Assembly (NCBI RefSeq): GCF_006861795.1
Contig: NZ_VDGH01000007.1
Location: forward strand, 186,001-250,000
Length of the DNA stretch: 64,000 bases
From: Psychrobacillus lasiicapitis
Lineage (GTDB): Bacteria > Bacillota > Bacilli > Bacillales_A > Planococcaceae
Reading direction: 5' to 3'
Shown: positions 16,868 to 56,366 of the stretch, one piece after another
Numbering within the stretch: the stretch's first letter is position 1
Layout: every line of letters begins with the position of its first letter
Notes under the pieces: model-generated
Databases searched by the model: none
Told to the model about the DNA's origin: nothing
What the model saw: the letters and a program-made list of their open reading frames with translations, nothing else
Program-made: the position numbers and the translations under genes

Positions 16868-16919
16868 ACTGCTCCCAGCTGTTGTTGTTATAAAAACAAC
16901 AGCTGGGAGCAGTTTTTTT
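16868..16919 (+). terminator. Strong terminator after the DUF6612-like lipoprotein gene
   Basis: A 19-bp perfect stem, 16868-16886 with 16895-16913, is followed by seven T. Confidence 0.93.
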
Positions 16920-16985
16920 ATTGGTTAGGAAACTATAGAAGATTTAGAGATGTGGAAACTTTTTTAAGTAACAGTATAGAAAAAA

Positions 16986-17419
16986 TGCGCGGTAAATTGT
17001 CCTATTAGGAGTTCACTATGATTTTCGCTTCAGGCGGACGCTTTCCGCCTGCATGGCTTCAATCTCCTCGTCGCTAACGCTCTGCGGGGCTTTCAGCTCA
17101 TGCTATTCCGGCAGGAGTCGCCGCCTTCCGCTTCAATCATTATGGATGGGCTGCTAATTTGGTGTCTGCAGTTATCAAAGTTATAAATTTATCAAGTTTA
17201 CCACTGCAAATAATTAAACCAAACTAGTAAAGGCTATCACCAAATAAGTAGCTCGTTTATTAGGATAAAGCTCGGTTCATCTTTTTCAACTAGTTATTGG
17301 TATCACATCTCCTCTTGTTCCATAATATTTCACATTTCTCTTATCGCTCACCCTCGCGGAAAGCGTCCACCCTGTAGCGAAAATCCCAGCGGACACTTCA
17401 TTCAACTCACTACCGCGCA
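16986..17419. repeat. Inverted-pair element, copy A (right half decayed)
   Basis: Terminal inverted repeat TGCGCGGTA (16986-16994) matches 17411-17419. The left GC-rich unit runs from about 17018 to 17155, with CAGGCGGACGCTTTCCG at 17030-17046. The right half survives only as 17350-17393 (GCGGAAAGCGTCCACCCTG in inverted orientation). The AT-rich centre has no gene. It belongs to the same family as copies B (34410-34861) and C (55772-56366). Confidence 0.8.
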
Positions 17420-17629
17420 GTTTCCCTATTAAGTGCGTTATTTTATTTTATCGTTCCCATAAGCTTAATTGGGCATGTGACAGGCGCTTAGCGCTTTTGT
17501 TCTTGGAGCCTCATTTTAAATAAAACTGCTTTGAATAAAAAATCTGTGGCTCTATCAATTTAATAAAATTACACAGTCAAAAACTGTTTAAGCAAGTTGA
17601 GACTGAATAAAAAGGTACTTTTCTTTGTT

Positions 17630-31249: not shown

Positions 31250-31540
31250 AGTGATACTTCAGCTAGAAGTACCACTTTTCAATATTTATCCCGCATTAAC
31301 GGGCAGTAAGACTCCCACTTCAAGTTTTAAGAATAGCGAAAAGATAAGTGGGAGATCGACTGCTGGCATGCGCCCGATGAAATGATCCTAGACTAAGTAC
31401 GCAACGTCGTGTTGCTCCTGCGCAAAGCTCGTCGCAAAATAAAAGAGCTTTTGCAACGTCTGTGTGACCCACATCGTGTGGGTCACAACTAACAATCAGT
31501 GGGGGATGAAGACCCCCCCTGATTGAAGTTTCACTTTATC
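31250..31540. repeat. Hairpin-rich intergenic repeat, long form
   Basis: It contains CCCGCATTAACGGG (31290-31303), CTCCCACTT (31312-31320) pairing with AAGTGGGAG (about 31344-31352), a GCAACGTC...GACGTTGC-type block around 31401-31480, a perfect GTGACCCACA/TGTGGGTCAC hairpin near 31470-31492, and CAATCAG-GGGGG/CCCCC-CTGATTG at about 31493-31526 next to the hmp stop. Its two ends reappear fused at 52864-52905. Confidence 0.7.
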
Positions 31541-33399: not shown

Positions 33400-34329
33400 A
33401 TGGAAAAAGTATTAGTTTTTGGACATAAAAACCCGGATACAGACACAATTACTTCAGCGATTGTATACGCACATTTAAAGAATGAAATAGGAGTAGAAGC
33501 TGAGGCAGTCCGTTTAGGCGAAGTAAACAATGAAACAAAATTCGCTTTAGAAAAGTTCGGATATGAAGCGCCAAGATTGATCGAGAACGTTGCAACAGAA
33601 GCGAAAAAAGTAATTTTAGTAGACCACAATGAAAAACAACAAAGCGCAGATGGAATCGAGGAAGTACAAGTAACAGAAGTAATCGACCATCATCGTATTG
33701 CAAACTTCGAAACGGCTGAGCCTTTATACTATCGCGCCGAGCCAGTAGGATGTACAGCAACCATTTTAAACAAAATTTACAAAGAAAAAGGCGTAGAAAT
33801 CCCAGCAAGTATTGCAGGACTTATGCTTTCTGCAATCGTTTCCGATTCATTATTATTTAAATCGCCAACATGCACAGAGGAAGACATCATGGCAGCACGT
33901 GAGCTAGAAAAAATTGCTGGTGTAAATGCGGAAGAGTATGGGATGGCTATGCTTAAAGCTGGAGCAGATTTAAGCGATAAGAGCTTAGAAGACTTACTTT
34001 CACTAGACGCTAAAGAATTCAGCATGGGTGATAACAAAGTAGTCATTGCTCAAGTGAATGCAGTAGATGTAAATGACGTAATGGGTCGACAAGAACAACT
34101 AGAGGAACTAATCCATCGTGCAATCGAAGAACAAGAATTAGATCTATTCTTCTTCGTCGTTACAGATATCTTAAACAATGACTCAGTAGTTTTAGCGCTT
34201 GGGAAATTAGCATTAAAAGCAGAAGCTGCTTTTGGAGTGAAATTCGCCAACAATACAGCTTTACTTAAAGGTGTTGTTTCTCGTAAAAAACAAGTAGTAC
34301 CAGCGTTAACTGAAGCATTAGCAAACTAA
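33400..34329 (+). CDS. ppaC: Manganese-dependent inorganic pyrophosphatase (family II)
   Basis: Hydrolyses pyrophosphate in the cytosol. The 309 residues contain the DHH phosphoesterase motifs [14 protein letters not shown] (about 7-20), DHN (VILVDHNE, about 73-76) and DHHRIANFE (about 97-105), followed by the DHHA2 domain with the substrate-binding SRKKQVVP near residue 297. The RBS AGGAGGA is strong. It ends in a terminator, after which comes the inverted-pair element copy B. Confidence 0.95.
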
Positions 34330-34331
34330 TT

Positions 34332-34373
34332 AAAAAGACTTCCTGACTTTTACTAGTCGGAAGTCTTTTTATT
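34332..34373 (+). terminator. Terminator after ppaC
   Basis: AAAAAGACTTCC-TGACT pairs with AGTC-GGAAGTCTTTTT, ending in a T-run at about 34370. Confidence 0.9.
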
Positions 34374-34409
34374 TTAGGAAACTATAATATTGAGGATATG
34401 TTACTGTTT

Positions 34410-34861
34410 AGGGATAATGCGTCATAAAGAGATACTAAGATGTCTGCCATGATTTCCGCTCCAGGCGGACGCTTTCCGTGGGGCGATCGGTGAGCCTCCT
34501 CCTCCGCTAACGCTACGTGCGGGGTCTCACCTGCCTCGCTAATCCCACAGGAGTCGCCGCCTTGCGCTTCAATCAATCGAACTTGCTAATAATTGCTAAA
34601 GTTTGTCTCATTCAATTATTCATAGGTTTTCCCTATAGAAAACAATATAGTACGAAATCTAGTACATCATTTCTTAGTAATTAGCAAACTCTACTGGATT
34701 GTAGCGAAAGGGTGGCGACTCCAGCGGGAAAAGCACGAGCTGAAAGCCCCGCAGGAGCGTGAGCGACGAGGAGATTGAAGCCGTGCCCGCGGAAAGCGTC
34801 TACCCTGTAGCGAAAATCCCAGCGGACACATAATAGCTCTGTCTTAAGACGCATTATCCCT
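34410..34861. repeat. Inverted-pair element, copy B (452 bp)
   Basis: A perfect 14-bp terminal inverted repeat AGGGATAATGCGTC (34410-34423) matches 34848-34861. The left unit is about 34450-34590 and the right unit, in inverted orientation, is about 34681-34825; the AT-rich centre is 34591-34680. Each unit folds into a long hairpin. It lies wholly between the ppaC terminator and the DsbA-like gene; short ORFs across it are not credible. Confidence 0.9.
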
Positions 34862-34964
34862 TTATTGTGCCAAATCCCGATTACAAGCAAAGCACTGTAT
34901 GTTTGCAGGCAATTATTTTGAAATCAAAGCAAACTCCCATTACAATGAACGAGAGGTGATGGAG

Positions 34965-55771: not shown

Positions 55772-56366
55772 TAGGGAAACTGCGAGGTAAAGAGATACGG
55801 CAAAGGCATTTGATTTCCGCTCCAGGCGGACGCTTACCGCGGGGCGGGCGGTGAGCCTCCTCGTCGCACGCTCCTGCGGGGTCTCACCTGTCCCGCTGAT
55901 CCCGCAGGTGTCGCCGCCTTGCGCTTCAATCAATAGAACTTGCTGACTAATCCATAATTAAATGCAAAAAAGCTCTTTCATTTATTTACCACTGTCAAGC
56001 AGTTCTTATTTAAAATCATTTTATGTACAGTATAAATTATAGGGAAGGTTGCTATTAGCCATTCAAGCAATGGGTCCCAACAATAGATAACAATCGCTTG
56101 ATAGTATATCTTTTCAACTAATAAAAGGTTTTCACCCATTGAAAATGCAACATAGTACTAAATTTAGTGTCTCATTATGGAGTAATTAGCAAACTCTATT
56201 GGATTGTAGCGAAGGGGTGGCGACTCCGACGGGAACAGTACGGGCTGAAAGCCCCGCAGGAGCGAGAGCTCCGAGGAGATGGAAGCCGTGCCCGCGGAAA
56301 GCGTCCACCCTGTAGCGGAAATCCCAGTGGACACTTTATTCAACTTACTACCGCACAGTTTCCCTA
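55772..56366. repeat. Inverted-pair element, copy C (595 bp)
   Basis: An 18-bp terminal inverted repeat TAGGGAAACTG.G.GGTA (55772-55789) matches 56349-56366 with two mismatches. The left unit is about 55812-55935, the inverted right unit about 56188-56325, and the AT-rich centre about 55936-56187. It lies between the ypuA terminator and the MhqO-like promoter. Short ORFs over it reflect the repeat, not genes. Confidence 0.9.

Follow-up and report, generated by a model that had tools for sequence, protein, structure and literature searches.

A covarying hairpin repeat inside MITE-like elements of Psychrobacillus lasiicapitis and upstream of presumed IS1182-type transposase genes in other Bacillales

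The question raised by this locus is why the two arms of a repeated intergenic hairpin change together. The analysed DNA (the window) is a stretch of 64,000 nucleotides from Psychrobacillus lasiicapitis (assembly GCF_006861795.1, contig NZ_VDGH01000007.1, positions 186,001 to 250,000, forward strand), for which the initial annotation had reported compensatory base changes among half units and had suggested selection on structure in RNA or single-stranded DNA. The half units belong to three elements whose ends could be located, A (16977–17428), B (34409–34862) and C (55772–56366), and in each of them two half units in inverted orientation, separated by a spacer, are enclosed by terminal inverted repeats. 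B contains a 34-nt inverted repeat. Its left terminal repeat (34409–34426, plus strand), a variant of TAGGGAAACTGCGCGGTA, and the right one (34845–34862, minus strand) also have exact 13-mer matches. Between the upstream gene and B lies an inverted repeat followed by a T run (34328–34374, plus strand), which is probably a terminator. No transposase ORF was found in A, B or C; the three elements are short and non-coding, have terminal inverted repeats, are present in many copies and are polymorphic in presence and absence, which are properties of MITEs.

Re-reading of the letters recovered all of the stems described earlier. In the left half unit of B (34451–34574, plus strand; profile match and fold), the outer stem pairs AGGCGG (34463–34468) with CCGCCT (34557–34562), the middle stem pairs GTGGG (34478–34482) with CCCAC (34544–34548), GCGA (34483–34486) lies opposite TCGC (34536–34539), and the inner stem places GGTGAG (34489–34494) opposite CTCACC (34526–34531). 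The right half unit of B (34697–34818, minus strand; profile match and fold) contains AGGGT:ACCCT and GCACG:CGTGC on the reverse strand, with an A.C mismatch next inwards from the former. GCATG:CATGC is present in the left unit of A (17020–17138, plus strand), GCGGG:CCCGC in the left unit of C (55812–55931, plus strand) and GGGTGG:CCACCC in the right unit of C (56202–56323, minus strand), all three units having been delimited by profile match and fold. Two features were absent from the initial annotation: the inner stem of C right reads GCACG:CGTAC and so contains one C.A mismatch, which the alignment shows in a whole subfamily of right units, and the right unit of A (17352–17385, minus strand) is a remnant of ~34 nt that matches positions 1–34 of the profile.

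Folded alone as RNA, the units gave z scores of −2.35 for B left (4 of 200 shuffles equally good), −1.67 for B right (13 of 200), −1.85 for A left (8 of 200), −2.60 for C left (2 of 200) and −3.93 for C right (0 of 200), and the opposite strands of B left and B right gave −3.39 and −3.48. Single units of the window thus fold modestly beyond chance, and it is the comparison across copies that carries the case for structure. The minimum-energy fold of the whole of B pairs its left half with its right half (z −11.07); in these predictions the local hairpins therefore compete with a long-range fold, a point that the earlier reading did not contain.

The comparison was made on 54 diverse units (56 chosen for diversity, from which two overlong ones were excluded), aligned as a hairpin of ~120–135 nt. 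Changes on both sides were found at 18 of the 25 consensus pairs, against 12.5 in shuffles, and 91.2% of all cells paired, against 77.6%. The number of double-changed cells was 179, compared with 46 in shuffles and 36–64 when the structure was slid along the alignment, and the covariation score of 0.375 (0.132 in shuffles) was reached by none of 500 shuffles. Within the window genome itself, one T:A pair of the core appears as A:T in 13 of the 93 readable units. Since relatedness can imitate covariation, substitutions were also simulated with our own script on a tree of 155 units, combining the genome's own units with those of relatives. Of the rows gathered for these analyses, 16 of 115 own units were dropped as not full length, and relatives when below 50 bits or not nearly full length, with a later reduction from 132 to 128 at 95% identity. 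Against 100 simulated alignments from this tree, which ignores exchange between unit types, eight column pairs were significant at E<0.05, six of them inside the predicted structure; of the two outside, 49:98 exhibited all four Watson-Crick types, and 55:91 adjoins a true pair and is itself unpaired. The larger alignment thus revealed no independent change at paired positions and more pairs than in shuffled sequences, and the statistical test bore out the original suggestion; the covariance model that had also been proposed, built from the 54 units, found the hairpin across the genus. These alignments support the view that selection would keep the fold rather than the letters, the unit being structured as RNA or as single-stranded DNA. 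The earlier reading did not recognize the hairpin as a repeat that extends across Bacillales and forms part of transposable elements.

In the window genome, three DNA searches, each scoring the best 40 candidates and therefore yielding lower bounds, recovered at least 115 unit matches in 60 stretches, which comprise 54 plus-then-minus pairs and seven unpaired units. Both ends could be located for 49 of the 54 pairs, giving elements of 249–662 bp (median 513). The TAGGGAAACTGCGCGGTA ends occur 150 times in this genome within three mismatches, whereas the reversed control pattern does not occur at all. Only short elements were seen among the ends inspected (100 of the 150 listed), with no autonomous copy bearing these ends in the readable contigs (three small ones were unreadable), and for five of those inspected no partner lay within 4 kb. 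Three elements traced from end to end (L331, L334 and L336) share these terminal repeats yet contain no hairpin unit, which indicates that unit and ends are separable. TA was present at both ends of 48 of the 49 elements, with four letters shared in 12, and may represent a target duplication, although TA is palindromic and part of the search pattern. With respect to genes, 25 of the 49 lie between codirectional ORFs, 22 between convergent and one between divergent ones (one could not be placed), and this avoidance of divergent gaps is as would be expected of a repeat tolerated downstream of genes.

Many elements sit mid-way in a second repeated sequence, as seen in the flanks of element A (16880–16976 and 17429–17520). 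Flanks of two types are found on opposing sides of an element, and the site at which they join is roughly a palindrome, as in GCACAGTA/TTATGTGC; this may be a preferred target, and the flanks form clusters of 11, 10, 7 and 5. Contigs C4, C7 and C16 of this genome start, and contig C3 ends, inside these elements, and near-identical copies may have broken the assembly.

Comparison across the genus revealed that B is polymorphic between species. Its site could be compared on both flanks in 16 of the 19 genus genomes, and B itself was present in two of these, the window genome and G013, with copies 97% identical. One further genome (G007) carries a different insertion with similar ends, and the remaining 13 lack B, a solitary unit being readable in the gap of one of them (L251). 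The gaps have diverged across species, and no clean empty site was seen among them. The ends of the window's elements are amplified in the window genome and in G013 (145 times) and were at chance level in the six other genus genomes in which exact ends were counted. In six of the orthologous gaps (L240, L241, L243, L247, L248 and L252), quite different short spaced repeats were observed; repeats in such gaps include ATCTCAGAAAATC, GAAAGCAACTAA, TTACTTGC and CACGACAAA.

The hairpin itself is distributed far more widely than these ends. Covariance model searches found units in all 19 genus genomes, with 47 to at least 150 copies each, and in 82 of 299 Bacilli genomes, representing 26 of 118 genera, the best 11 candidates per genome being scored in the class scan so that its counts are minimum values. 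In named genomes, a pattern scan gave at least 115 stretches, with 24 genus names among the matches listed, including Arthrobacter; this pattern fixes 22 letters, and the conservation of those letters in named relatives is in part a product of the search. Information content was 1.11 bits per column inside the unit and 0.10 and 0.14 outside, and this sharp drop at the edges marks the unit as a discrete object. Solitary copies between ordinary genes are common, and in many relatives such a copy has one further stem on the outside, which varies in sequence from genus to genus and, by eye, is still complementary. Six plasmid records matched; of four regions opened, three were units near ordinary genes and one was a short record. 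Phages gave no match to the unit. Rfam gave none at the gathering threshold for the window's units or for 13 stretches of other genomes; at a permissive threshold nothing usable appeared, a NEAT1_2 match of 15.7 bits (threshold 60) being a chance one. The sole gathering-level Rfam match of the window is a Bacillaceae-1 RNA (RF01690, 45.5 bits) at 31377–31482 on the plus strand. Four 15-letter core strings did not occur in the open papers searched, and no description of the unit was found among the papers listed on MITEs of Lysinibacillus, on IS1182 and MITEs, on repeats of Lysinibacillus or B. halodurans, or on Psychrobacillus.

Several single records deserve mention in their own right. Three units form a direct tandem with a period of ~209 bp in Jeotgalibacillus campisalis (L115, 2911–3449). 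A unit of Bacillales type occurs in a record named Arthrobacter beigongshangensis, an actinobacterium (L124, 4557–4677), by contamination, mislabelling or transfer. At five loci (L127, L189, L199, L208 and L251), units were seen by eye to lie within a longer sequence that the loci have in common, which has GTGAACACTGG-like text upstream and may be a further carrier element.

A second type of carrier emerged from the genes beside the units. Of the families that recur among 251 adjoining ORFs, the two largest include a transposase, whose representative at L132 matched PF13751 (DDE_Tnp_1_6; E 3.5e-31) and PF05598 (DUF772; E 2.2e-23); this transposase, with both domains, we take to be IS1182-type. 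This transposase was present in seven of the 115 pattern-found stretches listed, and most sampled units are not beside it. PF13751 had no match in the readable part of the window genome, and the window's elements encode no transposase of this type. With the L132 protein as query, 101 of the family's 151 genomes gave a match; one locus was examined in each of 30 genomes, and 24 of these 30 loci could be judged (the contig of L272 ends upstream of the gene, and L274, L277, L279, L284 and L285 lack its 5′ part). A unit was located 38–79 nt upstream of the transposase gene and on the same strand in 19 of these 24 loci, or 18 of 23 without L257, which is the query's own locus; L265, L268, L271, L273 and L275 had none. 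An inverted second unit lies beyond the gene at L272, L286, L168, L206 and L214.

Other arrangements were also observed. In Planococcus halocryophilus, a transposase-free element (L126, 3550–4100) with two inverted units and TGTAGACAAA-type ends is laid out as the window's elements are, apart from the ends; the same whole terminator stem-loop stands on both of its sides, as if duplicated on insertion. The L132 element likewise lies between repeated terminator stem-loops, and L188 has one unit between CACTGAAAAAGT-type ends. Flanking inverted repeats scoring at least 14 surrounded 11 of 124 units, compared with 0.04% in simple letter shuffles.

The units also carry information on which strand folds. 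If the transposase-sense RNA were the selected molecule, G.U-making steps should outnumber A.C-making ones on that strand, and the opposite was observed: about 76 against 118 over all pairs, and 22.7 against 73.7 in the lower stems. The upper stems exhibited no significant wobble asymmetry, and unpaired columns showed no matching mutation bias. In 125 of 155 units the strand opposite the transposase sense gave the more stable fold, and in 100 of 155 it was better beyond composition (p=5e-5), with strand p values that are generous, related sequences being treated as independent and CpG context standing outside the model. The asymmetry suggests that the molecule which folds, whether RNA or single-stranded DNA, is the strand opposite the transposase sense.

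Beyond what was observed directly (anatomy, copy numbers, covariation, differences between species in presence, and a constant position and orientation ahead of transposase genes), we tentatively favour, at a probability of roughly 45%, a reading in which transposable elements carry the hairpin as a structured subterminal module that is selected for its folding and acts as DNA during transposition. The half unit would be a conserved module of ~120–135 nt riding just inside element ends: in the window genome, in pairs of inverted copies within short non-autonomous MITE-like elements that have terminal inverted repeats of their own; in related genera, inside the left end of presumed IS1182-type insertion sequences and ahead of the transposase gene, where some of these sequences hold another copy, inverted, past the gene, and many further copies stand alone between genes. 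Its fold would work as DNA, extruded or single-stranded, in a structure-dependent transposition in which the strand opposite the transposase sense probably does the folding, and the module would spread with its carriers and may have switched between them. A structural role in DNA while the carrier moves is the most likely one. Weighing against this reading are the lack of an autonomous copy among the window-type ends inspected, the five judged loci with no unit, the small share of sampled stretches that hold the transposase, the upper stems without wobble asymmetry, and the long-range fold in which the halves of B pair with each other.

The main rival places the same hairpin at the level of RNA, as an insulator at the ends of insertion sequences, where transcription entering from outside would produce a folded leader that ends or blocks transposase expression. 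The fixed position and orientation at 19 of 24 judged loci would suit this role, as would the inverted second copies at five loci, which would meet transcription from the opposite side in an equivalent orientation, and at L166 the unit precedes, by eye, a further hairpin and a promoter-like stretch. The substitution steps run opposite to its prediction, however, in the 125 of 155 units already counted the sense strand folds less stably, and solitary copies between ordinary genes are common, all of which leaves the insulator unlikely. Somewhat different is the proposal that paired changes are mutational in origin, template switching during replication having turned one arm of the imperfect palindrome into a copy of the other, with no selection on structure. 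Direct steps from one Watson-Crick pair to another (226) exceed the intermediates (76 G.U plus 118 A.C, pair 38:115 being excluded from these totals), as arm copying would produce, although selection gives the same pattern and exchange between unit types could inflate the count. Arm copying should, on the other hand, erase fixed mismatches, yet a T.G was kept in 93 of 93 readable own-genome units (six of 99 being unreadable), at a position where the search motif required the T and left the G free, and where in named relatives the letters are partly fixed by the pattern. Bulges are conserved as well, and a symmetric copying process would not be expected to yield strand asymmetry, so that this origin is disfavoured and distinctly unlikely.

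A structured non-coding RNA or cis-regulator present in many copies would account for the conserved core, the sharp edges and the strong covariation. Against it stand the 47 to at least 150 copies per genome, the presence or absence at one and the same site and the failure of Rfam to match; moreover, no gene family lies beside more than five loci among the 251 neighbouring ORFs, and codirectional units show no clear bias in orientation (30 against 21), all of which makes such a role quite improbable. Least credible of all is a REP-like hairpin moved by a resident Y1 transposase of the RAYT type. High copy number, intergenic place and hairpin form are shared with such repeats, and Y1_Tnp genes are present at one to three copies in 18 of 19 genus genomes, but a unit lies within 1.5 kb of only one of 27 Y1 loci, whereas RAYT genes are described, in the part of the report cited, as always flanked by two inverted REPs (PMC2817692). 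No head tetranucleotide such as GTAG is common at either edge of 128 units, and with adjacency and head motif both failing, a REP/RAYT system was rejected. One Y1_Tnp locus of the window genome (L288, contig C22, 31344–34682) is adjoined by repeated GTGCCTTG-like text, and the low-copy Y1_Tnp may serve that different short repeat. A last alternative departs from the carrier-bound module in making the hairpin self-standing: a mobile sequence across Bacillales that would be recognized by its folded single strand rather than its letters, and would move between intergenic sites and unrelated transposon families that adopt it as a subterminal part. We regard this as doubtful.

Among the known repeats closest in general character are bcr1–bcr18 of the Bacillus cereus group, which the sections of the reports cited here describe as short intergenic repeats in tens of copies per genome, some MITE-like and some conserved in structure, with about half seen in transcripts (PMC6542083, PMC3446304). 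The unit resembles them, as so described, in being short, intergenic, multicopy and structured. By the same descriptions it is set apart from them: bcr1–bcr18 are specific to the B. cereus group and have a TTTAT motif, whereas the unit occurs in many genera of Bacillales, has edges without TTTAT and is found inside IS1182-type elements. Bhal-1 of Bacillus halodurans, a stem-loop family of 74 nt in 36 copies according to the account cited (PMC2267715), is likewise a repeated structured intergenic sequence in Bacillales and, compared by description only, is shorter. The likeness to REPs and BIMEs extends to high-copy intergenic palindromes, some in inverted pairs; REPs measure 20–40 bp in the source cited (PMC3733652), whereas the unit is ~120–135 nt long, has no conserved head and does not stand beside Y1 genes.

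A further comparison is with IS1272 of Staphylococcus, which is reported, in the portion of the source cited, to choose inverted repeats as targets (PMC5678879). The transposase adjoining the unit has the DUF772 and DDE_Tnp_1_6 domains, and the elements at L132 and L126 lie between repeated terminator stem-loops, which recalls that behaviour. The window's elements differ in having no transposase and other ends, in a genome where PF13751 went unmatched, and the descriptions of IS1272 in the cited portion mention no internal hairpin of this kind (PMC5678879).

The hairpin is abundant in many Bacillales genomes and has no match in Rfam. Its fixed place upstream of IS1182-type transposase genes points to a part in control or mobility that the cited descriptions of IS1272 do not mention. 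Its many copies provide a large natural set of covariation data on whether hairpins in transposable elements are maintained at the level of DNA or of RNA, and the strand comparison with which that question was approached here can be sharpened.
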